From Zanthoxylum bungeanum (Eukaryota; Streptophyta; Magnoliopsida; Sapindales; Rutaceae), in NCBI GenBank assembly GCA_019454045.1, contig SKCR01036116.1:62001-126000 (forward strand): a stretch of DNA of 64,000 bases, given 5' to 3'. Positions 21,377-64,000 of the stretch are shown here, piece by piece. The notes under the pieces were generated by a model. It saw nothing but the letters and a program-made list of their open reading frames with translations. It did not search any database and was not told where the DNA came from. The stretch's first letter is position 1, and each line of letters starts with the position of its first letter. The position numbers were made by a program, and so were the translations under genes.

Positions 21377-23011
21377 TGTTGGACAGTTATGGCCCATAGC
21401 ATCACTATTTGTACAGATCATGGTGTTGTTGTACAAATTAACTATGTGACAAAGGAAATTGCTCTTTATCATTTGTAATTAGATTACCAAGATATATAAA
21501 TGATAAAAGGTCCATATGATTAGTTCCGGATTGAGATGATATGAGACAGTATCAATCCATGAAGGTTTAATCATTAAATATCCCTAGTGGTAGTATTATC
21601 GAGACTGGACATCGATAATGCGGAATAGACTAGTATACACTTGTGCGCGTTGTGGGAGCATAACAGCATAGTTCTCATATATTTGGGTATTGGATACTCA
21701 TGCAAGTGTAATAGGAGATTGTGTTTGCCAATGGTACGGAGACAACTTCACTCTAGATAGACCCCTCGAAATTCCATTGGTAGTATGATTATGTGTCTAT
21801 GGAAGTCCGAATCAAGGTAGGTGTATTTGGTCTTAACTTGAGACTTGCACCGCTAATACTTGCGACAATCAATATACTTTGGTTTTGGTCGTCCAGGGCT
21901 TTAACAGGTTCTGTGTACGCATCTTCTGGGTATATTGAGAATCGTAGTGTATTGGGTGTGATGTCAAGATGGAAGTGTCACTCCAGTCATAGTGGAGATG
22001 ATGATCACGTAGGATACGGAACTGGTTCTCAATGTACTGCAGTCATCGGGATAATATGACTAGGTCATGATTATCCGATAATAGAGACTAGTTACCAGAG
22101 ATCCGATATGTGCTTCGTACGGGGCAGACATAATTCCAGCCTCAGGCCTTGCACGTGACATCCGATACTGGATCGAAATACGCAATACTACGTATACTAT
22201 GTCTGATATAGATCACATATTCTAGTAAGAATATTTCTGGAGAATTGGGTAGGCACGGTGCTTTGCTAGAAGCCAACCACGTCTTGTAAATCGGTAAAAA
22301 CGTAGTACTAGGTACGTACGTGTTCGGATAGTCCGATGACCGGATTTACTGCCAACATATCCGGGGATCTCATGGGTCACTTCACGAAGATTCACCGATG
22401 ATGTATGACTCGCACTTTATTAATCTGGGATTAATTATAAGAGAGAGAAAATTAATCTGGGATTAATTGCGGAGATATTTTATCTGGGATAAAATATTAA
22501 TTAACGAGAGAGAACGATTAATTTGGAATTAATCGATAAAATAATATATTCGATATATTATACGAAATTTATTTTTGGGAAATCATAACCAACACACATT
22601 CTCTCATTCTTCTCTCATCTCTTACGGTCTTGGACCACATTTCCTTCTCCAAATTTTAGCAATTTCCGAGAACAACAAGAAGGGAAATAGAAATTTTGTG
22701 GCACAATTTCAAGGTGCTAGCACACATTCGGGGTCCTCCTAAGGTGATAGGGAAATCAACTTATGAGCATGGAATCCTTACCCAAAGCTTGGAGCTTGAA
22801 GGAGACATGGAGCACAAAAATTGGTGGTGACCGAAAACTCAAGGAGTCCATGACAGTCCACTGCCGAGAGCTTCTAGGAGGAGCAAAATGATTTGGTGTT
22901 CGTCGCATCGCATAACCGATCGATGTAAGTATGATTCCGCCATTCTTCGTTGAGTATTCACATGTGTTTCATTGCTTGAATTGATCCTTGGGACTTAATA
23001 GAAACCCAACA
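21377..23011 (+). repeat. LTR1 of the tandem E element
   Basis: TGTTGGACAG...AACCCAACA. Compared with LTR2 it lacks the block corresponding to about 29514-29870 (from 'tacgaaatt' to 'atttttggaaaatcataacc'), with a short T-rich junction. It is followed by a PBS. Confidence 0.92.
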
Positions 23012-39319: not shown

Positions 39320-39587
39320 TGTTGATGGTCTTTTTTAAGCACTATGATATTTAAGCAGTACGGCAGGGGTAAAAGGGTAACTCCCTTCTTGATCAAAACC
39401 ACTAATGCCGACCCGACCATTCGATGTTGCATACGCCAACGGTAAGGGACCCAGCACTTGGTGATTAGTGACTGACCAATTAAGCTCGGGTGGACATGTA
39501 TTGTCAGATCGATAGCAACATTCTCAGTTCAGAGGACCATTGTGACCGACCTCATAAAGACCGACCAGATAGCGAGATATGCTCCAG

Positions 39588-39806
39588 AGATAAGTTATCC
39601 TATTCTTATGGGATAAAGAGATAAGTTATCCTATTCTTATGGGGTAAGGAGATAAGTTATCCTATTATTATGGGGTAAGGAGATAAGTTATCATATTCTT
39701 ATGGGGTAAGGAGATAAGTTATCCTATTCTTATGGGATAAAGAAGATAAGTTATCCTATTCTTATGGGATAAGGAGATAATTTATCCTATTCTTATAAGA
39801 AAAGGA
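39588..39806 (+). repeat. 31-bp tandem repeat in the K 5' LTR, seven units
   Basis: Unit 'agataagttatcctattctt' plus 'atggggtaagg', repeated seven times with few substitutions; the last unit is degenerate. It lies just upstream of the TATA box, so it is in U3. The GATAAG at the start of each unit resembles the I-box/GATA motif of plant promoters. Confidence 0.93.
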
Positions 39807-39820
39807 ATCTGATTTCTTCT

Positions 39821-39833
39821 CTATTATAAATAG
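39821..39833 (+). promoter_or_regulatory. TATA box of the K 5' LTR
   Basis: CTATTATAAATAG, about 15 bases after the tandem array. The equivalent lies at 43174-43186 in the 3' LTR. Confidence 0.7.
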
Positions 39834-40129
39834 AAGGGGAAAATGTAAGTAAGGGAATCAAGATCATTACCATCAGACTTGTAAACAAAAAACAGAGCAG
39901 AGAAGCATGTTTCAGTAATAAAACATCGTCCGTTTTGTGCCCATGGATGTAGGTTGGATCCCATCCGCCGAACCACGTTAAATCTCTTTTTTGATTGGTG
40001 TATTTATCTGTCTTTTGCCAAATTTTCTTTTAGTTTCCCATAAACAAAACAAATTCACAGTTGGAGGAGGATTGTCTAGGGAGTAAAAAACCCTTATTGC
40101 CCCTGAGACCGAAATCAGCCGTCAACAGT

Positions 40130-40147
40130 TGGCGCCGTCTGTGGGGA
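40130..40147 (+). other. Primer-binding site of element K
   Basis: TGGCGCCGTCTGTGGGGA two bases after the 5' LTR, the form used by Tat-like plant Ty3/gypsy elements. Confidence 0.92.
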
Positions 40148-40179
40148 ACTCAAAAAAAGGTAGCTCGCGTAGTAAGACG

Positions 40180-41720
40180 ATGGCAGAAGATGAAAATCAC
40201 CGGTCGTCAGGGAGTTCAACAGCGGAATGGATGGAGAAGATGGAAGAAAATATGAGGAAAGATAGGGAGGAGAATCAAAACCTTATGAAATCCATAATTG
40301 ACAGACTAGAGAGGATGAAAGAGACGAATGATGAGAGACTAGAAGCCGGAACCAGTCGGAGGAGAGGCGAAGTAGCAGAAGGAAAAAAGGTCACAGATGT
40401 GAGTAATGACGATGAACCAAGGAGGAAGGGTCCCTACGGGATAAGGTCCGTAGTGGTAGGAAAAGATTTACAAACAGAGGATACGTGGGAAGAAGAAGAG
40501 GGGCGACAGTCGCTAGATTCTTCCTATGATAGCCCCCGAGACACTAGAAGGGGAGATATGAAGGATGGTGAGAGTGGACGGGAAATCTCAAGTCATGAGG
40601 AATGCCGCACTCGGGGTGACAGACGCGAAGAAGGCCGTAGGAGGCGGCACTGTAACACAGATGGCAATATAAAATCTTGGTTAAGAAAAGAAATGGCCAA
40701 GTGGGAAGTGAACCTCAAAACTGGCACGGGAGATGCTCGGGACGGCGAGGTTGAATCTCCCTTCACAGAAGAAATAAGGTCGGTAAAATTCCCAAGACGA
40801 TTCAACATGCCGTCCATGACGCCCTACAAGGGCCACATTGATCCAAAATCCCACATTAAGAGTTTTGTCCTGATGATGGAGGTCCAATGAGTAGTAGGGG
40901 ATGCCATTTGCAAAGTATTCCCCCTAACCTTGGGGGGATTTGCCATTCTGTGGTTCAGAAGTCTAGCCCCGGGGAGCATCAGAAGCTTCACGCAACTCAG
41001 GAAGTCATTTATTCGGCACTTCAAAGGGGTCTGCGTCCCAAAGAAAATGGTGGGAGAATTGAGACTGATGAAGTAGGGGGATGATGAGCCCCTGAGGAGT
41101 TTTATTGAAAGGTACCACAATTTGGTGCTCGAGTTCAGAGCGTACGAGTCATCGAAAGCGTTAGAAAGTCTCAAGGGAGGTTTGAAGGTCGGGAAGTTGT
41201 GGACTCACCTGAGGATTCAAGACGTATCGGATTATGCCACTGCCCTAGAGTTGGCCAGGAAGTTTATCTTAATAGAGGAGGAGCAAAAGATTGCCCGGGG
41301 AGTAGACACCCGAAAGACTAAGATACTCAGGTCAGACAATCAGTGGGATTCGATCAGAAATTTGAGGAGACCAGTCCCGGAGTAGAAGAAACTCAGACTG
41401 ACACCTCTGAGTAGTCATGTTCAAGAGATAAAGTCTTATGTCCAAGTCAATCGTGTCGCGGGGAGGACAATATACACCCCCTGAACAAACCTATGGCCCT
41501 GATAGTTCGGGAAATCCAGGATAAAGGTCTGTTGGCCGAGCCTAATTTGAGGAGGTTCCCGATTAGGAGGGAAATAATAGGGCTTACTGAATCTACCATA
41601 ACGTAAGGGGACATGCCACGAATGGGTGCAGAGACCTGCGGGAGCAGGTGGAAGACTTGGTGAAAAAAGGCTATCTCAATGTGTACATAGACCATTCAGT
41701 TTTTGAGGTCGACCAAAGTT
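40180..41720 (+). pseudogene. Decayed gag of element K
   Basis: The first ATG after the PBS (40180) opens a frame to the stop at 40888-40890 (236 codons). Its N-terminal part is charged and coiled-coil-like ('EWMEKMEENMRKDREENQNL'); its end carries 'FNMPSMTPYKGHIDPKSHIK', the start of a Ty3/gypsy retrotransposon gag domain. In the same frame after the TGA the gag domain goes on ('FPLTLGGFAILWFRSLAPGS', 'LRKSFIRHF') to a second stop near 41073, then from about 41080 to 41385 ('FIERYHNLVLEFRAYE', 'DYATALELARKFILIEEEQ'). Near 41612-41690 a 'GHATNGCRDLREQVEDLVKK' stretch is the usual gag knuckle remnant. Several stops; not functional. Confidence 0.88.
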
Positions 41721-41927
41721 GATAGCGGAAGTCATCCGGTCGGATGCGTGGAATGCTGAGATGCAGAGAGGATGTATTAAGAAGAGCATTGCTTGTAGTG
41801 AACCTTGTAGAGTTGCAAGAAAGGCAACGAATCCCAAAAATGTGAGTAAGACCTCTTCTGTCTTAGGCTGACATTTGATTATGCTTGTTTGTTATAGCCC
41901 ACACAATGGTTTTGATATTTGTTTTAT

Positions 41928-42460
41928 GGCTCGGGTCTGCTCTTGTACCGCCGAGTCCGTTTTGTTGATATATGTTTTACGGCTCGGGTCTGCCTTGTAC
42001 CGCCGAGATCGATGTTTCTTTCCGACTCGGGTCTGATCTTGTATCGCCGAGACCGATGTCTCTTTTCGACTCGGGTCTGCTCTTGTACCGTCGAGATCGA
42101 TGTCTCTTTTTAGCTCGGGTCTGCTCTTGTACCGCCGAGACCGATGTTTCTTTCCGGCTAGGGTCTGCTCTTGCACCGCCGAGACCGATGTCTCTTTCCG
42201 GCTCGGGTCTGCTCTTGTACCGCCGAGACCGATGTTTATTTCCGGCTCGGGTCTGCTCTTGTACCGCCGAGATCGATGTCTCTTTCCAGCTCGGGTCTAC
42301 TCTTGTACCACCGAGATCGATGTTTCTTTCCGGCTCGGGTATGCTCTTGTACCTCCGAGACTGATGTCTCTTTCCGGCTCGGGTCTGCTCTTATACCGCC
42401 GAGACCGATGTCTCTTTCTGGCTCGGGTCTGCTCTTGTACCGCCGGGAGGTGACATTCCC
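41928..42460 (+). repeat. 44-bp minisatellite inside element K, about 12 units
   Basis: Unit 'ggctcgggtctgctcttgta' followed by 'ccgccgagaccgatgtctctttcc'. Middle units are exactly 44 bp; the first is longer. As 44 is not a multiple of three, successive units change frame, and all three plus frames stay open for 117-135 codons with a 44-residue super-period. There is no sign that these frames are translated. A degenerate unit lies at 42480-42510. Confidence 0.95.
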
Positions 42461-42735
42461 CCAGAGCCAAATGTTCTTCTCAGCTCGGGGTCGGGTTACG
42501 TCCCACCGAGTTGATCTTCATCAGCATAAGGGCAAAGTATTTTCTCAACGGGTAGATATCGGGATCCTCGTTGACTGAGCACATGAAGGTGGCAGGAATG
42601 ACCAGATTTGCAGCCAAGACATTTTTCTCTGCGGTTCCTGGAGTGACCAACGACGGATTCATCGGCACACCATCTTTTTTTATAGTTCCCGGTATCAACT
42701 CGCAAACTCGTTGTTACCGAGAACTAGAGGATAGA

Positions 42736-43479
42736 TGTTGATGGGGTTTTTTAAGCACTATGATATTTAAGCAGTACGGCAGGGGTAAAAGGGTAACTCT
42801 CTTCTTGATCAAGACCACTAATGCCGACCCGACCATTTGATGTTGCATACGCCAACGGTAAGGGGTCGAGCACTTGGTGATTAGTGACTGACCAATTAAG
42901 CTCGGGTGGACAGGTATTGTTAGATCGATAGCAACATTCTCAGTTCAGAGGACCATTGTGACTGACCTCATAAAGACCGACCAGATAGCGAGATATGCTC
43001 CAAAGATAAGTTATCTTATTCTTATGGGATAAAGAGATAAATTATCCTATTCTTATGGGGTAAAGAGATAAGTTATCCTATTCTTATGGGGTAATGAGAT
43101 AAGTTATCCTATTCTTATGGGGTAAGGAGATAAGTTCTCATATCCTTATAAGAAAATGAATCTGATTTCTTTACTATTATAAATAGAAGGGGAAAGTGTA
43201 AGTAAGGGAATCAAGATCATTACCATCAGACTTGTAAACAAAAAAAAGAGCAGAGAAGCATGTTTCAGTAATAAAACATTGTCCGTTCTGTGCCCGTGGA
43301 TGTAGGTTGGATCCAATCAAACGAACCACGTTAAATCTCATTGTTGATTGGAGCATTTATCTGTCTTTTGCCAAATTTGCTTTTAGTTTCCATAAACAAA
43401 ACAAATTCACAGTTGGAGGAGGATTGTCTCTGGAGTAAAAAACCCTTATTGCCCCTAAGACCGAAATCAACCGTCAACA
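42736..43479 (+). repeat. 3' LTR of element K
   Basis: 744 bp, TGTTGATGGGG...GTCAACA, with five 31-bp units at 43004-43158 and a TATA box at 43174-43186. Point differences from the 5' LTR are few but visible. Confidence 0.93.
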
Positions 43480-47250: not shown

Positions 47251-48017
47251 GCGAGGTAGAAATAATTTTATAATATTTTAGTTTCAACTTAGGATGTGAG
47301 AGGCCACCCGAAGGATTTTGTATTGATGTTTATACATGTATTATGACATGTCGCAAGTAGTATACATCATATGGTGGTTATAGATTAGTTAAATGGAGAA
47401 ACTTACCATAAATCCAAAATATATTTGCGAATTATATTCTAACCAAGTTTACCGATTATAGATTATCGGCAGGAATCCCAAGTTCTTCGACGAAGCAAAA
47501 CAGTGTCAGCCAGATTCCAAAATCTGTGAGTGGCCTCTTTTTTCTTTTCAAGTTGTCATTTCCTTATTTGTTTTGAAGCGAGACTTACTTTTAAGTGTTT
47601 TAGGGCGTTAGCCAAGATGATTTACATTTATTTCATAAATGAAAAAGGTTTTGGAAAGTTTGAGATAAAGAGCATGAGCTTTATGATTTTTGAAGGCATG
47701 GGGAAAAAACCCACCTCAATATGCAACTTGACTCATATATGAAATTGACGAATAGAAATATCGTGTGCACACGCAGTTCAGGACTATGGATAATTGATGC
47801 CCCGAGATCCTAGATTTTTGAGTCAGAAGGGCAACTTAGATTCGCACCACTGGCTTCAAATTTTTGGCTTGACGGACGACGAGACGTAACCCCAAGACCA
47901 CCAAATATTGCATATAGGGGGATGCCCGCAAGCGCAAACTTTTAATTTTGTAGGGACGGCGGTACGTAACGCCTCCATGTGCCAAATATTCAAATACAGA
48001 TTTTCAGATGTTGATTT

Positions 48018-50558
48018 TGTTGGGGTTTTAGCGCGGGCGCAGCGGAAGCTCGCGGTTCGGGCGAAATCTTAATTTTAAAACTTTTTAATTTACCGAATAA
48101 ATTATTCAATATCCAATATGAATAATTCATTCATATTTCACCTAAACATATTTATTCGATATCAAATAATGACATAAATAGTTAAAAATGTCACGAAACT
48201 TTTAAAAAATATTTTTCCGCAAAATGGCATAAAAATGCGTTTTTGACCGAACCGATCACCCAACACACATGAGGGCTGTTCAGATCAGCCCCAATAGTAT
48301 TAGGGAAGTTCATGAGCTGCCCGAACAATGACCAATTCACTATTTGGGTAGCCGTCACCCAGTTGGCTCAAAAGTCACCCGATAACACCGTTTTTCATTG
48401 TTTTCGCATATTTCAACTACGAAACAATTTCTGGAAATTGTTCCAACAAACAAAACACATCCAATATATTTATATGACATAATTTTCATCACCATATGAA
48501 CAATATTTCCAGATCTTATCCAGAAGCAAAATATATCAAATTTTCATGCTTAAAATCCAATTATCTAACATTAATCTAATTAATCTTAACACAAACCAAA
48601 GTCACCACAAATGAACCACCAAAGAAAAATTCTAGGCATTACAAGAGTGGTCATAAAACTCTAGAATTGTAACTTATCATTAAATGACAAAATTGAATCA
48701 ATATTACAATAATATTATCCAAAACAACTTCACACATGCACAAAGCCTTCCAATTCATCCTCCAAACCAAAAAGCTCCAATTTATAGAAAATAAGAAACC
48801 ATAGGATCTCACTAGATCATCAAGAGACAAGAAACATAATTTCTAAGCTTAGGGATTTGTAGAATTACCTTTAATCCTCTAATTCCTTAGCCTTTTTTTT
48901 TCTTGATTTTCTTCATTCTCCATCTTGAATCATCAAGTATGATTTGAGAGCTTTTTAGGATGAGTTCATTCGGCCATGGTGTTCATCAAAGTGAAAAGAA
49001 AAAATTTCAACTTTAAAACAAGCCATGACCGACTTAGCTAGGGGCATTTTGGTCAATTTTCAATTTTAATCCAATTAAACAAAATCAAACTTTATGTTAA
49101 CAAATCAAATTTGCACACCTAAAGATTAATCAAAACATGCCACATGTCACCAATAATAATTAAACATTTATCATAACAATTATGAAAAATGGATATTATT
49201 TAATTATTCAAATATATAACATTTAAATATCTAAATAATTAATTAATATAATAATTATTATATATGTATTTTATTTACATTAAGTAATAAATACATTTAT
49301 TAATGGAATTGTTAATGGCATGTGTCAAAGTCTTAATTGACACTTAATTAATGTGTATATAATCAAATTATGTATCAAATACAAATACACAATAATTACG
49401 ATAGACCAAAATCCCTTAAAACATGTGTTTTCGTTTAACCGATTAAACGATTCGAATTAACTCATTTAATCTGATGAAGTATTATGAATAATATATATTA
49501 TTCATAACGCGTTGCCCAAGTGCTCAACGAGTACACTTCATATTGTGGGACTCTCTAAGTTTAGGTTTATCCGTCATGAAATCCAATTTCGTGTCAATAA
49601 TTCATCCACTCATTACTTATAACGACCACGGATAATCTCGTTAAACTATACAAGTTGAGGTCATTGCATACATATAATCCCTCCGTCACAGGCTATCCAT
49701 ATTATACCTGGGATATAGATAAGAACGTCAAATCCATATGGTATAATATAGTTGACCTTCAAATTTACGATCTCTAAATAACACTCGGAACTGATTTCTG
49801 AAGTTATACCACGGCCATGGATTTACTAGATCACAAACACGTGCAAGATGCTTATGCTTGTACACAGTATTGACGGATTATATCTTGATACGCACATGAT
49901 ATCATGAGCATCAGCCTACACCCAACGAACAGACGGAGGTCTGATCTAAATAGATCGGTGACGTGACTGCCATCAAAGTGTGGAGAATAACTCATATATC
50001 CACTGTGGTATCTCAAGTCGAATGACTACTATGCTCGCTAAACTCGAGAAGATTCCTATTGACGTTGGTGTACCATCTATTAGGAAATATTCAGTGAGTC
50101 GTTCAGTGTTTATCAAATAAACACCTATATGTCTATACGAGTCTCCTGAGACTCATGGTTCATTGGGATAAACCACCGGACCAAGTCACGATATACGACA
50201 TGTACTGGTCTCAGTGGATTTTACTAACTGACCCGTGTTAGTAAATCTTGACCAGGAACTTTATTTAAGGATATACAACTTATAGTGACGCTTCCCAATG
50301 TCAATTACAAACTACGTTGTAACTGCACACTACGTTGTAAATCCTAGGGTCTTTGTCTAATATACATGTATCTCTAAATCTGATTTAGTTTCAATCTAAT
50401 CATAATTAGATATCTAATCACAATTAGATCGAATATGTATATAAAAGACAAGAGGTGCCACCATTAAATAATTAATATTATGGAAAAATGAATTGTTCGT
50501 ATTTATGAATCGAACATAAATACGATCCAGATTGGCACTCTGAGCACCAACCCTAACA
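48018..50558 (-). mobile_element. 3' LTR of Copia-like element B
   Basis: 2541 bp, TGTTGGGGTTTTAGCGC on the left and ...AACCCTAACA on the right. It reads on the minus strand because the PPT is on its right and the partner LTR at 63125 has a PBS on its left. The first 130 bases differ from that partner at only about six positions. Bases 48013-48017 (GATTT) are the probable left target-site copy; the partner lies beyond the window. Confidence 0.9.
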
Positions 50559-50575: not shown

Positions 50576-51473
50576 TAGTTCTAATCTACAATATCATATA
50601 CACATCTCAATGTGTATCACATACTCATGGCCCTCAAGAGCTCACCTAGAACCCAAGAGGTAGGCAACAACAAGTAAGTCTACTTTAATAAATTGAGTCT
50701 GTCCAACAAACCTAATTGTTTTCCTTAGCCAATCATCATTCATATTTTGTAGAACCCAAGTTCTACATAAATATGACTCAGATGCGATATCAATATTGTA
50801 CTATAGCTATAAAGTTGTCTATGTATTTAAAGATCTAATCCAAAGTACTTTCCATACAACCGCAAGCACAATACTAATATCAAAATCTTCTAATCTATAA
50901 GGTCACTATATAACTGCATAAGTCAATACTTCATAAGTTATAACTAATTCTACTGACACAGTAGAATCATCTGTGACACTCTCACTGCATCTTTTCTGAC
51001 TCTATATGACATAGACTGTCTAATGTCATAATTAGATTAAAACTAATATGACTCTAATAGTTGCGGATTATATTCTCTATGAATAAGAAACTTGTTCTTA
51101 ATATCTCAAGGATAATAAGGAACATGTTCAAGACACATCCTATTGTCTATATCGTATCAAAATAGCTCATAACAATTACGATTAAATTGATATCTTTAAT
51201 CACACATGATATAGTATTCATTATGCTATCATCATATGATGCATCATATTGACTAAATATTCTAATCAATTTCTCTTTCGAAATATGAATCATCATATAC
51301 GAAAGATTAATATGATGTACAAGAGACACACTAACTGTCAAACAGTTATACTAACTGTCATACAGATAGTTTTGATGTGTCTTTATTAGATCATATCTAA
51401 TGCACGACTACTTGGAGTTTCTCACAAGTCTCTTAATTTTATATCATAGATAAAATTTTATATCAAATATAAC
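50576..51473 (-). mobile_element. Internal region of element B, 3' part
   Basis: AT-rich, with many stops in all frames and no recognisable pol motif. It ends at the ATAAC target site of element C (51469-51473) and continues at 59728. Confidence 0.6.
51469..51473. other. Target-site duplication ATAAC, left copy
   Basis: ATAAC directly before the TGACCGG end of element C; repeated at 59723-59727. Confidence 0.92.
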
Positions 51474-52369
51474 TGACCGGCGTAAACACACACGTATAAC
51501 GCAAGCGCACATATCGTTCAAGTAGTATAAAAATATCGATCCCACGAGGACTTAATTTCTACTGTTGTTATTAATTATTGAATCTATTTATTTACAAATA
51601 TCTAATTAAAGGAAGAATGGAATTGATTGTTTGATTGATTGAAAGTGGTTTTACAAAATAAATAAATAAATAAAAAGACAAAAGAAAATACTAAGGAAAA
51701 TAACAAAAGACACAAAGATCTAGGGTTGTGAATCCTTCTAATATCTTTTAAAAGATGAAGTGGTTATTTTATGTTTGTGTAATAAATCAGTTTACTAACC
51801 TGGAACACTAAATTATGTAAAAGCCTCTTCCGATGGTCAGACACAAATACCCAGTTTAACCCAATTGAACCATATGTCTATGTCAACCAAATTATCTGGA
51901 TTCATTAAGTTTAAGTTCCAATTATGGCTACCCCCGCCCGACAGGTATATTCCTATCCTGTAAGGAAATCTATTAAAGGGTTATCTATCCTCAAGGAAGA
52001 TCGTGGGCTATTAAGTCTAAGGCTGAAACCTAAAATCCCTATGTCTAGTTCATTTTAGATTTACCACATCAATCTTATTGGTGATCAGACAACAAGAAGC
52101 ATTAAGCTTAAGAATTAATAAGTAAACCTTTAAATTACCCAAACTATAAAATAACCCCATATAAATCAGTGATATTAGAATTCATCACAACCCCAGATAA
52201 CTAACACATAACTAGGGCTAGTAACAACTTAAAAGTAAAAGACATAAAAATACTGAAAAGTAAAAGACATAAAATAAAATGCTAAGGTAAAAGGAATTAC
52301 TTTTACTACTACTAATTTAGATATCTCCCATAAAATAATATATAAACTTGTGATTCTTTCTCCAACCAG

Positions 52370-52545
52370 CCATATAGGCGGTAACCTGATTAAGTCAAAT
52401 TAAGTCCAACCAGCCATAAAGGCGGAACCAAAATTAAATTACCAACCGACCAATCTGGCGGTATCCTTTATTAGTCAGGTTTAAACCAGATTAAAATGAA
52501 TTACCAACCGACCAATCTAGCGGTATCATTTATTAGTCAGGTTTT
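52370..52545. repeat. Four-unit repeat in U5 of element C
   Basis: Phrases 'ccaaccagccatataggcgg', 'ccaaccagccataaaggcgg' and two 'ccaaccgaccaatct(g/a)gcgg' copies, the last two followed by 'tat.(c/a)tttattagtcaggttt'. Present in both LTRs (58415-58595 in the other). Confidence 0.85.
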
Positions 52546-52848
52546 AAATAGTGAATATATTATTTTTAAGGGAGATTAATCTAAATAGTAAAAGTAAAAG
52601 AATTACCTTTCACCCTAGCTGGAGAAGTTACCTCCTCATGGTAAATAGTAAAAACTGTGAAAAGTAAAAAATAAAAATTAAATTACTATTATCACAAAAC
52701 ATAATTAAAATTATTTACAAAACTAAAAATTAAAAAAAACTAAAAAACTAAAAAAAAACTAAAAACTAAAGAATCTAGAGAGAGAAACTCTCTCTTTAGA
52801 AAGAATTTAAGAGAGAGGAAGGTACACTGAAATCTGAAATTTCGCGCT

Positions 52849-52858
52849 CTATTTATAG
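52849..52858 (-). promoter_or_regulatory. TATA box of the element C 3' LTR
   Basis: Minus strand CTATAAATAG. The same motif is at 58896-58905 in the 5' LTR, where it would drive the element's transcript through gag-like and LOG sequences. Confidence 0.7.
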
Positions 52859-52889
52859 GGGTCGATAAGGGTCCAGCGTCGCGACGCTA

Positions 52890-53360
52890 GATTTGTCGAC
52901 GTGGCAGCTTCCGGTTCGTCGGTTGCAGATTCCGGATAAGGTGATAAGGTGACAGGTGGCGGAGTGGTTGGAACTCAATTATTTTTACACGTGGCGGCTT
53001 CTGATTGGTCGCTGAGATTCTTATCCGCCACGTGTCAGATAAGGATAGGATATCCAATAATTGATGCTGACGAGGCGTTGACATGGCGGTGATGTGGCAA
53101 TGACGTGGCGACACGTGGGAAAGAGACTATCGGCATCATAAAATTGCGACACGTGGCCGCTTCTGATTGGGTGATGATGACGTGGCGATGAGGTGGCAAT
53201 GTTGACTTGTTGACTTGCTGACGTGGTTGATGACATAGAGATGACCTGGAGTGACACGTGGCACACGTGGCGATGGTGACTGTCGGCACCGTAGGATGCT
53301 GACACGTGGCACGGTGCATTTTAGCAGATCGACTGTGATGGTGACACGTGGCACGGCGCA
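52890..53360 (-). promoter_or_regulatory. Dense ACGTGG/CACGTG (G-box/ABRE-core) array in U3 of the 3' LTR
   Basis: At least ten ACGTGG or CCACGT cores, several being CACGTG, at about 52899, 52986, 53029, 53103, 53113, 53148, 53182, 53221, 53254, 53263, 53303 and 53344. They sit 30-510 bases upstream of the TATA box in element orientation. ACGTGGC is the core bound by plant bZIP factors (ABRE/G-box). The repeat phrase 'gacacgtggcacgg' occurs twice. No binding is shown by sequence alone. Confidence 0.7.
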
Positions 53361-53659
53361 TTTTAGCAAAGTCAAACTTTTCTCAGATTCTGATTTGTGG
53401 ACCCGACGTACGTTAGCACTGTTCGGCGTATTTTAGACGTCGCGACGCGGAAGGATTGGCGGCACGACGCGCTAAAGACCAAAATATCCCTGTTCATGCA
53501 TTTTTGTCCGTTTTTGCCCCAAATTGCCTCCAATGCTTTCCAAACTTTATTTATCTGCAAAATAACACAAAATACATCAAAAAGTTCACAAAACTCGAGA
53601 AACTATACGAAATATTAGGTCAAATGAGTGGGAATAAGTGATATAAATATCACTCATCA

Positions 53660-53672
53660 CACCCCCAAACCT
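53660..53672 (-). other. Polypurine tract of element C
   Basis: Minus strand GGTTTGGGGGTG directly before the 3' LTR. Confidence 0.85.
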
Positions 53673-54868
53673 AACATTTTGCTAGTCCTCGAGTAAAACA
53701 CAAAATAAAATAACATAAATAAATTAACTAAGCCACTTTCGTAGGGATCACGGTTGCATTTAGCGTATGCAATAAGCCTTTAAACCCCTAGGTGTCCCTA
53801 GTGGACGAGTTGTAGTCTCGTGAGGGCTTACAGCAATGATACCCACAAACATTTTTAGAAAAGTAAAAAGTTTATAAAACTAATGCACACAAAAGCAAAA
53901 AGACAAGCGAAAAGAGAATAAAGATGTTAGTGACTAATCAAGTGAAACTTCTACTCCAAGTTACTAGTTGTTTTGTTTCTTTCTAAATTACTGAATAAGT
54001 AAATTCTCCGATTATATTTACCATTCTCCATATACACAGCCAACAAAATATTAAACAACTCATTTTTGCCCACAACAGTCATAAGTGCAGTTGATAAGAG
54101 AGTAATATTTTTGTCCTAAAGTTTTATCAGAATTCACACATTTTTGCAGCAATGTAATAATTTTTCATTTTTCTGATTTTTTTTCTTTGATTTTTCTCTA
54201 TTTTTTATTTATATACAATATCTTCCATCTATGTAACGAGTGTTGGGTCGGTGACTCCCAAACTAGTTGGCTTTAGGGCACCAGGTGTTAAGACACCCCT
54301 ACGGACTTAATTACTCAGACTTCAGATATATATTTGCAGCATCTTTGATCCATGTAGTGAGCTTTGGGCCAGTGAGTCCCAAACCAGTTGGCTTTAGGGC
54401 ACCAGGTGTTAAGACACCCCTACGGACTTAATAACTCGGATTTCAGATTTTTTTTTTACTCCATTGCTTTTTGAGATGTTTCTTCCAATTAAACTAGAGC
54501 ACTGAATATTACAAACTTTTCAATTTTAGTTCATGTCCGTATGTTACTATAATGTTGATAATATCTGTCAACTGAGCATATGAAGATTCCTTTTAGTCAA
54601 TTTTATGAAGAATTTACAAATTAAGTAATTCAAAATAAAATAAACAAAAATTAACTTGTTTCGAAATAGGCTTGAGATATGTCTCAGGAGTGGAAACTCC
54701 TTACTCGGCTATCTCTTACCAATTTCACATTTTTAGTCAAAATAAAAACACAAAAACGCAAAATATTTTTGTAATTTTTGAAAAAATTTCAATTTTTTTG
54801 TATTTTTCGAAAAATTTTGAACTAAAAATAAAAACAACATACAACTAAAAACAAGATATTAATCAACT
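53673..54868 (-). mobile_element. Non-coding 3' interior of element C
   Basis: No coding frame. It includes the tandem pair at 54212-54450 and long A/T-rich runs. Phrases such as 'ccctaggtgtccctagtgga' may belong to the element's 3' untranslated region. Confidence 0.6.
54212..54450. repeat. 121-bp tandem duplication inside element C
   Basis: Two units share 'gttggctttagggcaccagg' and the following 'tgttaagacacccctacgga'; equivalent points are 121 bases apart (54277 and 54398). Confidence 0.9.
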
Positions 54869-54872
54869 AATT

Positions 54873-54912
54873 CCCTCCCCCAAACCTAAATGAGACATTG
54901 TCCCCAATGTCT
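54873..54912 (-). other. Second PPT-like block with CATTGGGGACAATG motif
   Basis: Minus strand reads ACATTGGGGACAATGTC, then, after 'tcatt', TAGGTTTGGGGGAGGG. From family knowledge, this pair is a hallmark of the 3' region of Athila/Tat-type elements. Here it lies 1.2 kb before the real PPT, just downstream of the LOG homology. Confidence 0.65.
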
Positions 54913-55123
54913 TAAACAGTAGAAGAAGAGTTTAGACGATAATACCTGGTTAACTGAAATTCTACAGGAATTTAAAGGTTAAGATCCAGATTAACCCGAC
55001 GTCTATAACCACGATCGTCCCCAGACCAATTTATCTTTGAAATGATAGGGTCAACTTGTGGTTCATATGCTATTAGTTGGTAAATTAGATCCGGAACGGT
55101 TCTGGCAGTAAACAGAAGTTCTT

Positions 55124-55660
55124 TTAAAGTTTTGATATTAACCCATTCCTCCGTGCATCATCAAGAAACACACAAAGAAAATCATAAAATCCATTAATAT
55201 TGTACAGCCCAATTGGTTTCTGGTGTATGTTCAGGTTCGCCCAAGATAGTACAATAAAAATTTCTTCCAATGTACCCAAGCCACCTGGCAAAGCAATAAA
55301 AGCATCAGCACGGTTAATCATTTCTACCAGTCGTTCAGACATAACTGGCACGATCAGTTCCTCTCCATTTGATGATTCAGTAAGATTTGCCTCTGCCAAG
55401 GGTTTTGGGATAATTCCTAAAACATGACTGCCTCCTTCATGTACGGCCTTTGAAACGATCCCCATTAATCCAAGATTGCCTCCGCCATATATTAAGTGCA
55501 TATTCCTTGTAGCTAATACTCGACCCAACTCCTGTGCTGCTTCTATGTATTGTGGTTTAACACCAACACTACTACCGCAAAACATACAGATGTTTTCAAC
55601 TCGTCTTCTTGAAGTGGCTTCCATTTTTATATGTATTTCTTTCTCAACTCTGGATGCCAT
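55124..55660 (-). CDS. LOG: LOG-family cytokinin riboside 5'-monophosphate phosphoribohydrolase, captured in element C
   Basis: LOG enzymes release active cytokinin base from its riboside monophosphate in the cytosol. This 178-codon frame starts at the ATG at 55660 (MASRVEK). It shows the family's landmarks in order: 'CMFCGSSVG' (25-33), 'YGGGNLGLMG' (58-67), 'HVLGIIPKPL' (79-88), the conserved Arg of 'SERLVEM' (Arg110), the hallmark 'PGGLGTLEE' (125-133) and 'KPIGLYNINGFYDFL' (148-162). Family members are usually ~210-230 residues. After the stop at 55124 the minus strand continues C-terminal LOG-like sequence in another frame to about 54972 ('LIYQLIAYEP', 'DPIISKINW'), so a frameshift truncates the protein near residue 176. 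No introns interrupt the frame although plant LOG genes have several, so it derives from spliced mRNA. It sits between the GGGAGGCAACCC block and the PPT-like block of element C, in the envelope-like slot. A stable enzyme is uncertain because C-terminal residues are lost. Confidence 0.88.
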   Translation of the reverse strand: MASRVEKEIHIKMEATSRRRVENICMFCGSSVGVKPQYIEAAQELGRVLATRNMHLIYGGGNLGLMGIVSKAVHEGGSHVLGIIPKPLAEANLTESSNGEELIVPVMSERLVEMINRADAFIALPGGLGTLEEIFIVLSWANLNIHQKPIGLYNINGFYDFLCVFLDDARRNGLISKL

Positions 55661-55663
55661 CAA

Positions 55664-56073
55664 AAGTGCAATGATGGGCTGAATTTATAGTACCTGAAAA
55701 AGGGTGAGTAATAATACCACTAGTATCTTCCAAAGGACGATTGTTAGCTAAACAACAAAAGAGATCGTGAAAGGTCAAAAAGTCTGGATCCTGTCTACGA
55801 AAATAAAGATAATTACAACAGAAAAGCAAATGAAAGCAATAATTAAGGTAACAGAATTGTGTACGCAATACGCCACTCGTTTGTATATAAATCCATTAGG
55901 ATGCTTCTCAAGATTTCATTCATTACTCAGCCTTCGCTAATGAATTGTTTCTCTTCTTTGTGATTTCCAAACATCATTCCTTCTGTCTTAAAATGCTCCA
56001 TTTGTGCCTTTCCCTACAAAAATAACACACAAAATTAAAAAGTTCACACAAAACAAATTACAACAAATTGCAT
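55664..56073 (-). mobile_element. Linker between the gag-like region and LOG in element C
   Basis: No conserved protein. The minus strand carries two pyrimidine-rich AG sites resembling splice acceptors ('tttttgtaggg' near 56015 and 'ccctttttcaggtac' near 55697), the second ~35 bases before the LOG start codon. These could let a spliced subgenomic RNA present the LOG frame, as proposed for envelope-like frames of Athila elements; this is inference. Confidence 0.45.
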
Positions 56074-56086
56074 GGGTTGCCTCCCT
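56074..56086 (-). other. GGGAGGCAACCC motif of Athila/Tat-type elements
   Basis: Minus strand TAGCAGGGAGGCAACCC, preceded by 'ttagcgc'-like sequence ('aatttagcgctagcaggg'). From family knowledge, such a block lies at the end of gag-pol or before the envelope-like region in plant Athila-type elements. Confidence 0.65.
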
Positions 56087-56136: not shown

Positions 56137-57258
56137 TCAAGGAGGTTTCAGCGTCGTTTTGGATGTCCGATTAAAGACAATCCCGTGAGCGTTGCTTTTG
56201 AAGGGTCTCTTCCAACGGAAAAATGGCAGAAAGAATTTTGTTCTATTCAGTGCTCGTGCCACCTTTTTACTCCTTGTTGTTCCAGTGGTTCCTGCAAAGA
56301 AAGAAATAAAATCAGGAGGTCTCGTATGATGCTTGACTGGGAATGGAAGTTCCATTCTGTCAAGCTTCTGGGCGATATCTTTGATTTGTACTCCCCAAAA
56401 CAGCGATGTTTCTCCTGAATGCTCTGGATCTTTATTAATGTCAGACATTTGGTCCTCCATTTGCTCTGCTTCTTGCTCCACATTTTCTTTACAGATGTAT
56501 TTTGAAATTTCCATATTCAGCTCTTCATCTGTCATCTGTGAAATACATGTTTCAAAATTGTCAACCTGAGGATGAAAAGAAATGTCAGATTTTAGGTCTT
56601 CATCCTCTGATATGACTGGAATTGATGGTTCAAATAGATCTTCTTCAAATATCATAGTAAAGCATGCTCCAAGATCTTCATTTTGAGGACACAGAATTCC
56701 ATCCTCATTTGTTGGTGCAGTTGGTACAAACAGTTCAGCTTCATCCTTGTCAGAATCAGAATAATAAATATCAAATCAAGACTTTGCCGGTTCGGGTTCC
56801 TGAACTGATTCCTCTGGTTGTTGATACTGCTCAGCCTCCTCCTCTGTTGAAGTGTCATTGTGAAATGATTGGTACTCGAAGGCTTCATCAATGTCATTTG
56901 AAACAGGTTCTTGAGGTATATAGTTCTGGTTTTCTGTGAATTGTCTGATCTGATCTGTCATTCTCTGTATGGATTATGTGTTACTCTGAATTTGTGCATC
57001 AAATCGAGCTGTTTGTTCTTTGAACATGTGAATCAATTGATCTTCCTCGGATGGTTCTGGTTCTTGATAAGGATCGAAGGAAGATGGTGGATAAGATGGA
57101 AAATGTGATGGTTCTTCGTACCATGAATGATTTTGATAGCTCTGCCACCCTGGATTGTAATTGTACTCGCAATAATCTCTTGGGTGGTTACCATTACATA
57201 TGTCACATCTCCACATTGAGTTCTGTTGAGCAAATGTAGTACTGCGTGGTTCTGGCAT
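56137..57258 (-). pseudogene. Gag-like frame of element C with two in-frame stops
   Basis: One minus-strand frame runs from 57258 to 56137 with stops at 56974-56976 and 56776-56778, three open pieces in the same phase. The N-terminal piece has a Cys/His knuckle 'CDICNGNHPRDYC' followed by Tyr/Pro/Glu-rich sequence ('PSSFDPYQEPEPSEED') and a short helix ('LIHMFKEQTARFDAQIQ'). The middle piece is Gln/Glu-rich. The last piece is acidic, then basic near its C terminus ('RSKKVARALNRTKFFLPFF', 'TSKTTLKPP'). I know no function; the knuckle before the acidic part suggests a rearranged gag product of non-autonomous Athila-type elements. The two stops, both single changes from sense codons in appearance, make it a pseudogene here. 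Confidence 0.7.
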
Positions 57259-57487
57259 CCAGTGATAATTATTGGGCTGGACAACAGGTCTCAGAAAACC
57301 GGACTGTTACTCCCAAATGTGGGGTGTATCTTTTAGTAAAGCTCGTAATCTCTCAATCTCCCAGTAATGTTCCATTTGTTCAATCACCTGAAAACAGAAG
57401 AAAGAAATAAAATTACAGATAAAAATAAAGAAAATTAGATACAAGTAAATTGGATAGTTTCAAAATTAATAACTCAAGAAATATAAA
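57259..57487 (-). mobile_element. Leader of element C
   Basis: Short AT-rich sequence between the PBS and the gag-like frame; no start context is evident. The ATG at 57258 is the first of the long frame, and the region upstream in the same phase is interrupted by stops. Confidence 0.5.
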
Positions 57488-57505
57488 TCCCCGGCAACGG
57501 CGCCA
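57488..57505 (-). other. Primer-binding site of element C
   Basis: Minus strand TGGCGCCGTTGCCGGGGA, six bases from the 5' LTR. This is the site typical of Athila/Tat-type plant Ty3/gypsy elements. Confidence 0.95.
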
Positions 57506-58895
57506 AAAACTTGACCGGCGTAAACACACACGTATAACGCAAGCGCACGTATCATTCAAGTAGTATAAAAATATCGATCCCACGAGGACTTAATTTCTAT
57601 TGTTGTTATTAATTGTCAAATCTATTTATTTACAAATATTTAATTAAAGGGAGAATGGAATTGATTGTTTGATTGATTGAAAGTGGTTTTACAAAATAAA
57701 TAAATAAATAAATAAAAAGACAAAAGAAAATACTAGGAAAATAACAAAAGACACAAAGATCTAGGGTTGTGAATCCTTCTAATATCTTTTAAAAGATGAA
57801 GTGGTTATTTTATGTTTGTGTAATAAATCAGTTTACTAACCTGGAACACTAAATTATGTAAAAGCCTCTTCCGATGGTCAGACACAAATACTCAGTTTAA
57901 CCCAATTGAACCATATGTCTATGTCAACCAAATTATCTGGATTCATTAAGTTTAAGTTCCAATTATGGCTACCCCCACCCGACAGGTATATTCCTATCCT
58001 GTAAGGAAATCTATTAAAGGGTTATCTATCATCAAGGAAGATCGTGGGCTATTAAGTCTAAGGCTGAAACCTAAAATCCCTATGTCTAGTTCATTTTAGA
58101 TTTACCACATCAATCTTATTGGTGATCAGACAACAAGAAGCATTAAGCTTAAGACTTAATAAGTAAACCTTTAAATTACCCAAACTATAAAATAACCCCA
58201 TATAAACCGGTGATATTAGAATTCATCACAACCCCAGATAAATAACACATAACTAGGGCTAGTAACAACTTAAAAGTAAAAGACATAAAGTAAAAATACT
58301 GAAAAGTAAAAGACATAAAATAAAATGCTAAGGTAAAAGGAATTACTTTTACTACTACTAATTTAGATATCTCTCATAAAATAATATATAAACTTGTGAT
58401 TCTTTCTCCAACCAGCCATATAGGCGGTAACCTAATTAAGTCAAATTAAGTCCAACCAGCCATAAAGGCGGAACCAAAATAAATTACCAACCGACCAATC
58501 TGGCGGTATCCTTTATTAGTCAGGTTTAAACCAGATTAAAATGAATTACCAACCGACCAATCTGGCGGTATCCTTTATTAGTCAGGTTTTAAATAGTGAA
58601 TATATTATTTTTAAGGGAGATTAATCTAAATAGTAACAGTAAAAGAATTACCTTTCACCATAGCTGGAGAAGTTACCTCCTCATGGTAAATAGTAAAAAC
58701 TGTGAAAAGTAAAAAATAAAAATTAAATTACTATTATCACAAAATGTAATTAAAATTATTTACAAAACTAAAAATTAAAAAAAAACTAAAAAACTAAAAA
58801 AAAAACTAAAAACTAAAGAATCTAGAGAGAGAAACGCTCTCTTTAGAAAGAATTTAAGAGAGAGGAAGGTACACTGAAATCTGAAATTTCACGCT

Positions 58896-58905
58896 CTATT
58901 TATAG
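58896..58905 (-). promoter_or_regulatory. TATA box of the element C 5' LTR
   Basis: Minus strand CTATAAATAG. Transcription from here would run leftward through the gag-like and LOG frames. Confidence 0.72.
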
Positions 58906-58919
58906 GGGTCGATAAGGGT

Positions 58920-58960
58920 CCAGCGTCGCGACGCCCAGCCAGCGTCGCGACGCTAGATTT
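58920..58960. repeat. Duplicated GCGTCGCGACGC palindrome next to the TATA box
   Basis: Two copies of 'agcgtcgcgacgc' about 20 bases apart in the 5' LTR; the 3' LTR has one copy (52875-52888). Confidence 0.9.
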
Positions 58961-58964
58961 GTCG

Positions 58965-59425
58965 ACGTGGCAGCTTCTGGTTCGTCGGTTGCAGATTCCG
59001 GATAAGGTGATAAGGTGACACGTGGCGTAGTGGTTGGAACTCAATTATTGTGACACGTGGCGGCTTCTGATTGGTCGTTGAGATTATTATCCGCCACGTG
59101 TCAGATAAGGATAGGATATCCAGAAATTGACGCTGACGTGGCGCTGACATGGCGGTGATATGGCAATGCCGTGGCGACACGTGGGAAAGAGACTGTCGGC
59201 ATCATAGAATTGCGACCTGTGGCCGCTTCTGATTGGGTGATGATGACGTGGCGATGAGGTGGCAATGTTGACTTGTTGACTTGCTGACGTGGCCGATGAC
59301 ATGAAGATGACCTGGAGTGACACGTGGCATACGTGGCGATGGTGACTGTCGGCACCGTAGGATGCTGACACGTGGCACGGTGCATTATAGCAGATCGGCT
59401 GTGATGGTGACATGTGGCACGACGT
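58965..59425 (-). promoter_or_regulatory. ACGTGG/CACGTG array in U3 of the 5' LTR
   Basis: The same array as in the 3' LTR, with cores near 58966, 59020, 59054, 59095, 59128, 59170, 59180, 59248, 59287, 59321, 59330 and 59370. A few cores are lost by single changes (for example 'gacatgtggc' near 59410 and 'gacctgtggc' near 59216). Confidence 0.7.
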
Positions 59426-59722
59426 ATTTTAGCAAAGTCAAACTTTTCTCAGATTCTAATTTGTGGACCCGACGTACGTTAGCACTGTTCGGTGCATTTT
59501 AGACGTCGTGACGCGGAAGGATTGGCGGTGCGACGCGCTAAAGACCAAAATATCCATGTTGACACATTGTCCGTTTTTGCCCCAAATTGCCTCAAATGCT
59601 TTCCAAACTTTATTTATCTGCAAAATAACACAAAATACATCAAAACGATCACAAAACTCGAGAAACTATACGAAATATTAGGTCAAATGAGTGGGAATAA
59701 GTGATATAAATATCACTCATCA

Positions 59723-59727
59723 ATAAC
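59723..59727. other. Target-site duplication ATAAC, right copy
   Basis: Directly after the CACTCATCA end of element C. Confidence 0.92.
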
Positions 59728-63120: not shown

Positions 63121-63124
63121 TTTT

Positions 63125-64000
63125 TGTTGGGGTTTTAGCGCGGGCGCAGCAGAAGCTCGCGGTTCGGGCGAAATCGTAATTTTAAAACTTTTTTAATTTA
63201 CCGAATAAATTATTCAAAATCTAATATGAATAATTCATTCATATTTAACCTAAACATATTTATTTGATATCAAATAACAACATAAATAGTTAAGAAACGT
63301 CGCAAAACTTTTACGAAACGTTTTTCCATAAAATGGCATAAAATGCGTTTTTGACCAAACCGACCACCCAATACACATGAGGGCTTCCCAGGTCAACCCC
63401 AATAGTATTAGAGAAGTTCATAGGCTACCCGAATAGTGACCAATTCACTATTTGGGTAGCTGTCACCCGGTTGGCTCAAAAGTCACCTGGTAACGCCATT
63501 TTTCACCATTTTCGCATATTTCAACTCTGAAACAATTTCCGGAAATTGTTCCAACACCCAAAACACATCCAATACATTTATATGACATAATTTTCATCAC
63601 CATATGAACAATATTTCCATATCTGATCCAGAAGCAAAATATATCAATTTTTCATGCTTAAAATCCAATTTTCCAATATTAATCTAATTAATCTTAACAT
63701 CAACCAAATTCACCAAAAATGAACCACCCAAGAACAATTCTAGGCATTACAAGAGTGGTCATACCACTCTAGAATGGCAACTTATCATCAAATGATAAAA
63801 TTAAATCAATATTACAATAATATTATCCAAAACAATTTCACACATGCACAAAGCCTTCCAATTCATCCTCCAAACCAAAAAGCCCCAAATTTATAGAAAA
63901 GAAGAAACCATAGGATCTCACTAGATCATAAAAAAACAAGAAACATAATTTCTAAGCTTAGGGATTTGTAAAATTACCTTTAATCATCTAATTTCTTAGC
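63125..64000 (-). mobile_element. 5' LTR of element B, cut by the window end
   Basis: TGTTGGGGTTTTAGCGC..., collinear with 48018-48893 with few differences. The window shows only about a third of it. Confidence 0.9.

Follow-up and report, generated by a model that had tools for sequence, protein, structure and literature searches.

A LOG-family reading frame within a decayed LTR retrotransposon of Zanthoxylum bungeanum

The 64,000-nucleotide stretch of Zanthoxylum bungeanum DNA analysed here (the window) carries on its minus strand an LTR retrotransposon, element C, whose interior includes a frame assigned by alignment to the LOG (LONELY GUY) family, the product of which activates the growth hormone cytokinin. 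We read C as a decayed, non-autonomous insertion of Ty3/gypsy type, probably Athila/Tat, in which LOG is an extra ORF that stems from a plant mRNA and has long been inherited, and we put the probability of this reading at roughly 0.8.

Borders, signals and age of element C

C is delimited by a pair of LTRs of 2.2 kb each (57512-59722, 5′; 51474-53659, 3′), both of which, in element sense, start with TGATGAG and end in GGTCA. Its structural features are as follows.

57512..59722, minus strand: 5′ LTR of element C, pairing with 51474-53659
51474..53659, minus strand: 3′ LTR of element C, pairing with 57512-59722
59723..59727, no strand: target-site duplication ATAAC on the 5′ side of C, outside the 5′ LTR
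51469..51473, no strand: target-site duplication ATAAC on the 3′ side of C, outside the 3′ LTR
57488..57505, minus strand: primer binding site, 18 nt, 6 nt inside the 5′ LTR
53660..53675, minus strand: polypurine tract (PPT) GTTAGGTTTGGGGGTG, adjoining the 3′ LTR
54875..54890, minus strand: internal PPT-like tract TTTAGGTTTGGGGGAG, just 3′ of LOG and a near copy of GTTAGGTTTGGGGGTG
54206..54447, minus strand: 121-nt unit in two tandem copies, in the stretch ahead of the 3′ LTR

The signs by which an LTR retrotransposon is recognized (LTR pair, target duplication, primer site and PPT) are all present in C, and they bear out the preliminary description, which had placed the LOG frame between C's LTRs, on the element strand and enclosed by ATAAC. 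The primer site, which we take to fit tRNA-Asp, has a shuffle mean of 0.00 (100 shuffles, up to 3 mismatches), and two PPT-like sites occurred in only 2 of 100 shuffles, using a pattern built from C's own two tracts. The LTRs differ at 66 of 2180 aligned sites (3.0%), with 8 gap events and a K2P distance of 0.031; at substitution rates of 1.3e-8, 6.5e-9 and 2.5e-9 per site and year this corresponds to an insertion about 1.2, 2.4 or 6.2 million years ago.

A second LTR-like pair (48015-48891 and 63122-64000, 15.1 kb apart, pieces 90-95% alike, the right copy leaving the window) encloses C, which therefore seems nested in another LTR element. Elsewhere in the window, a 44-nt unit forms a tandem array of at least 10 copies at 41906-42521, between the repeat pair 39320-40038 and 42736-43391. 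A 267-aa frame at 40087-40890 on the plus strand looks gag-like to the eye; 1599 candidate proteins yielded no relative for it at E 0.001, and Pfam gave nothing above cut-off. Between 22566 and 31857, direct repeats recur as families of three copies (300-nt pieces at 22566, 29866, 31558 and others), which points to more nested elements. A search for tRNA genes gave none.

A LOG-family frame with a damaged end

The LOG sequence within C occupies two adjoining stretches, read in different frames.

55124..55660, minus strand: LOG frame, 178 codons and stop, with profile, sequence and fold matches
54972..55124, minus strand: LOG C-terminal part in a different frame, past a frameshift, by alignment to P0001

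The main frame matches PF03641 (E 3.3e-34, 118.4 bits, cut-off 27), TIGR00730 (E 1.3e-46, 158.6 bits, cut-off 96.35) and PDB 2a33 (At2g37210, Arabidopsis LOG3; E 4.5e-53). The truncated frame stayed below the cut-off of the narrower NCBIfam equivalog NF058542, the model for cytokinin riboside 5′-monophosphate phosphoribohydrolase (113.8 bits, cut-off 300). The frame contains PGGLGTLEE and the MSERLVEM Arg; PGGxGTxEE and the upstream Arg are presumably the catalytic residues of LOG. Relative to MHQRKAEM of LOG3, the window sequence MSERLVEM keeps the Arg and replaces the adjacent Lys with Leu. A structure model of the frame as it stands reached a mean pLDDT of 80.9 in the best of five predictions (three fell below 50), and its top structural matches were 2a33 and 1ydh, followed by type-I LOG proteins of Pseudomonas and Corynebacterium. 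Judged by these profile, sequence and fold matches, the frame at 55124-55660 is a member of the LOG family (TIGR00730, type I), so that the identification first made from its motifs holds on alignment.

The frame had also been taken as whole, and here the preliminary description needs correction. A frameshift lies near the end of LOG: the window frame halts after ISKL at codon 178, and the last 50 residues continue in another frame, where they align to P0001 with a score of 196 (maximum of 1000 shuffles, 46). P0001 and other full-length LOG relatives have 217 residues; because of the frameshift, the window copy lacks a full-length frame. No base was restored in LOG or in the gag-like frame described below. 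The window copy would at best yield a LOG without its C-terminus. The preliminary description proposed that, if other copies carry LOG, the element disseminates a gene for hormone activation; because of the frameshift, this is doubtful for the window copy in its present state.

Decay was simulated at the between-LTR rate from an intact start. The 178-codon frame stayed free of stops in 78% of runs (observed stops, 0), and 1.05 frameshifts were expected over LOG's 651 nt (observed, 1). The damage matches the simulation, and LOG thus looks as expected if it was whole on arrival. For the gag-like frame, which has three in-frame stops, the simulated probability of at least three was about 0.05 and that of exactly three 0.04; 1.9 frameshifts were expected and none is needed to read the frame. 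Its stops exceed expectation, so the gag-like frame may have been partly dead on arrival.

A gag-like frame and no detected pol

Upstream of LOG, in element sense, lie a gag-like frame and a leader that separates the two.

56137..57375, minus strand: gag-like frame, interrupted by three in-frame stops and bearing a CX2CX3HX4C motif, its first Met set by P0138
55661..56136, minus strand: leader from the gag-like frame to LOG, both ends common to relatives

The relative P0138 aligns along the gag-like frame starting from the Met at 57375. The CX2CX3HX4C motif, CDICNGNHPRDYC, was found by eye and looks like the zinc knuckle in the gag of Athila/Tat elements. Neither this frame nor four of its relatives gave a Pfam match above cut-off. 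A search with a 212-aa part of it gave 120 candidates, of which 21 matched at E up to 1, with 67-80% identity over 23-100% of the query; none of 13 candidate stretches from viral contigs matched the same part.

The interior between the LTRs measures 3.85 kb and has two frames of at least 150 aa, neither of which is pol. Among the 13 of 37 interior frames of at least 40 aa that were scanned against Pfam, LOG alone scored above cut-off and no pol was found; the 10 short frames among these 13 gave no match above cut-off. The other 24 are mostly plus-strand or overlapping frames, and a strongly decayed scrap of pol may lie among them. Within the two long and 10 short frames, C lacks the pol of its own that would mark an autonomous element.

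Borders common to relatives

Relatives were compared as predicted proteins, each without its contig surroundings. Twelve of the 21 gag-like relatives extend to TLKP, where the gag-like frame ends in the window; eight stop there and four continue. These four (P0126, P0136, P0137 and P0139) run past C's gag-like stop into C's own leader rather than into pol, each with a leader match equalled in none of 500 shuffles; the furthest, that of P0139, extends to window position 55926 with a change of frame. P0137, alone among the 21, also starts inside C's LTR: its first 24 residues match window positions 57583-57512 (23 of 24 identical, 0 of 300 shuffles), up to the LTR's last base, from which the match jumps to a later part of the gag-like frame. 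LTR, gag-like part and leader thus meet in one other copy, and the jump may reflect deletion, splicing or assembly.

The LOG side gives a corresponding picture. A script searching for fixed spellings of the start motif marked 6 of the 120 LOGs as extended. P0007 and P0011 match the DNA just before LOG, at about 55733-55698 and 55698-55648, with scores of 50 (shuffle maximum 44) and 40 (shuffle maximum 35), each unmatched in 200 shuffles; P0062 (33 of 200 shuffles), P0068 (47 of 200), P0010 (160) and P0012 (172) do not match this flank. P0007 and P0011 are only 69% and 67% identical to the window LOG and yet share its flank, which indicates that flank and LOG have been together for long, and the flank may go back to LOG's own 5′ leader. 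A pairing of P0001 with P0121 on one 1296-nt contig was rejected, since 275 plus 217 codons would have to overlap.

There are signs, from these protein ends, that the LOG-bearing arrangement of C is common to other copies. The preliminary description had asked whether other copies carry LOG; leader, LTR start and pre-LOG flank do recur among relatives, but the middle ~190 nt or so of the leader is covered by none of them, and among the proteins compared none was seen with gag-like frame and LOG together.

The shared ends bear on two other accounts. One holds that window-clade LOGs are ordinary host genes, in which case the flank in P0007 and P0011 would be no more than a host LOG's 5′ leader. 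The named relatives, from Populus, Xanthoceras, Reevesia, Diplodiscus and Acer, would suit it; against it stand the element borders on both sides of the window copy, the leader common to the gag-like side too, and the YgdH domains reported by PMC9289625 for Citrus and Populus in consensus sequences of LTR elements. We regard it as quite improbable. The other account is a single event confined to C, as in maize Bs1: a host LOG mRNA was retrocopied, and the copy either inserted into the element or entered it by transduction. Plant LTR elements are known to capture genes (PMC13317346), and LOG stands in a single frame on the strand of the element; the pre-LOG flank in P0007 and P0011 and the leader common to four gag-like relatives speak against it, and further evidence comes from the surroundings and relatives of LOG itself.

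Relatives and origin of LOG

Had LOG arrived by itself, it might show its own poly(A) tail and target duplication, a check proposed in the preliminary description. Neither was found. The two 200-nt flanks of LOG hold no duplication (longest common word 8 nt, shuffle mean 8.3), and no run of five A occurs within 160 nt 3′ of it; three runs of 5-7 A lie 165-197 nt past LOG, beyond the internal PPT-like tract, in A+T-rich DNA. In view of this, LOG most likely moved as part of the element.

A protein search returned 4471 LOGs, and the best 120 were examined. The closest among these, P0001-P0003, are 84-87% identical to the window LOG, and those of Xanthoceras, Populus, Diplodiscus, Reevesia and Acer 54-64%; no row among the best 120 bears a Citrus name. 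Outside plants, one locus in 66 candidate stretches of viral contigs matched the LOG alignment, as a distant LOG-like sequence (44% over 48 residues, E 8e-7), and none of 43 bacterial and archaeal genome contigs matched P0001.

Two trees were built, a quick one of 120 rows (117 hits of at least 157 aa, the window and two Arabidopsis LOGs, with 3 shorter hits omitted) and a careful one of 45 rows, whose 42 hits were hand-picked from the best 120. LOG3 and LOG8 group together on a branch of 0.69 (quick) or 0.62 (careful). The window's near set comprises 10 rows at a support of 99 in the quick tree and 5 rows at 100/99 in the careful one, and the enclosing clade 32 rows at 99 and 18 at 100/99, respectively, with Populus and Malvaceae rows outside; in both trees the Populus LOGs fall within the same wider clade as the window LOG. 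Since resemblance to the window decided which hits entered, the trees show only that the window LOG is not close to LOG3 and LOG8. Xanthoceras and Acer rows keep MHERKA or MNERKA and are nearest to the Arabidopsis LOGs, and at a guess these LOGs are nearer to the donor.

A recent capture in C finds no support in these results: LOG3 and LOG8 are distant, closer relatives are many, and Citrus and Populus offer precedents (PMC9289625). With many LOGs nearer to the window than LOG3 and LOG8, and with no visible tail or duplication, the one-off event in C alone is unlikely.

Near-clade LOGs are 57-88% identical to the window, and 11 of 31 measure exactly 217 aa. PGGxG[TV][FLM]EE is present in 28 of these 31 rows and in 109 of the 120 best hits. 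The Arg is kept in 103 of 115 scorable LOGs (the best 120 of 4471, less 5); within the near clade (31 hits, quick tree), 29 are scorable, of which 21 keep it and 8 lack it. The Arg of MxxR is replaced by Gln in P0007, P0011, P0013, P0021, P0022, P0023, P0031 and P0092. On motif evidence, the Arg-less near LOG branch has perhaps altered or lost its activity.

Comparison with known elements

Two motifs that we take to be common in Athila/Tat elements, GGGAGGCAACCC (56074-56085) and GGGGACAATGT (54895-54905), occur in the window at counts hardly above chance and so carry no weight as evidence of type. C resembles Athila and other OTA elements in its non-Met tRNA primer site, a sense extra ORF before the 3′ LTR and non-coding stretches. 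According to PMC6317226, tRNA-Asp is one of the primers of non-chromoviruses, and extra ORFs and large non-coding regions occur in most OTA elements; PMC7264820 and PMC6317226 describe extra sense ORFs ahead of the 3′ LTR in plant LTR elements. All of these OTA traits (non-Met primer site, extra ORF, non-coding stretches) are found in C, where they are suggestive of Athila/Tat and no more. C is probably of Athila/Tat type, a label that rests on primer site and motif. It differs in that the extra ORF of Athila/OTA elements, placed between pol and 3′ LTR, is env-like or of unknown kind (PMC7264820), whereas that of C is LOG, and in that no pol was found.

A search of titles and abstracts, with most subscription papers outside it, found PMC9289625 as the sole report of LOG in LTR elements. 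That study screened LTR elements of 121 angiosperms with reverse transcriptase as marker. The YgdH (LONELY GUY) domain turned up in Citrus sinensis and C. clementina, in consensuses of Gypsy type, and, under a looser filter, in Ty3/gypsy elements of P. trichocarpa, a finding it calls consistent with Steinbauerova et al. 2011. C is thus a further LOG-bearing element of a kind already reported in Citrus and Populus. It has in common with those elements a LOG-family domain within a plant Gypsy-type LTR element; it differs in having no detected pol, and for C the LOG ORF is also characterized by where it lies, how it is bordered and how it is damaged. A screen with reverse transcriptase as its marker would miss a pol-less element.

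Other plant LTR elements also hold host-type genes. Maize Bs1, like C, is an LTR element with host gene sequence, but according to PMC13317346 it holds segments of three genes, none full length, whereas C has one near-full-length gene whose flank is shared by relatives. Gypsy elements of Phalaenopsis carry an AlkB-type demethylase ORF for which activity in vitro was shown (PMC9289625); they too acquired a host-type enzyme as an extra ORF. They differ from C in the enzyme and in their length of 25 kb.

How LOG may travel, and whether it is of use

In the reading that we prefer, a plant LOG mRNA would have become an ORF of the element long before the present C insertion, LOG in the C family would be an extra sense ORF between gag-like frame and 3′ LTR, and element copies would have inherited it since capture. 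The LTR would drive transcription of C, and an autonomous relative would supply the enzymes that move the RNA. In intact copies LOG would be translated from a spliced or downstream message and give an active phosphoribohydrolase; putative acceptor-like sites upstream of LOG were noted by eye.

This anatomy is compatible with a further reading, which concerns use: LOG could be mere freight, kept by chance and useless to element or host. The window copy is broken, and the Arg is absent in 8 of 29 scorable near relatives. The near rows nonetheless keep the Arg in 21 of 29 cases, PGGxG[TV][FLM]EE in 28 of 31 and a length of exactly 217 aa in 11 of 31; since open frames are over-represented among predicted proteins, such conservation argues only weakly against freight, to which we give somewhat less than an even chance. 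A bolder idea, which we consider unlikely, is that pol-less LOG elements persist across several rosid orders, where intact copies would raise active cytokinin in the cells that express them, and with it cell division and their own transmission.

If that idea were true, LOG would be the best conserved product of a pol-less family and would favour its transmission via dividing cells. Why plant LTR elements retain extra ORFs is an open question, and because the reaction of LOG is known, its use as an extra ORF is directly testable. The common borders described here suggest that LOG also travels in pol-less elements, which screens based on reverse transcriptase overlook.
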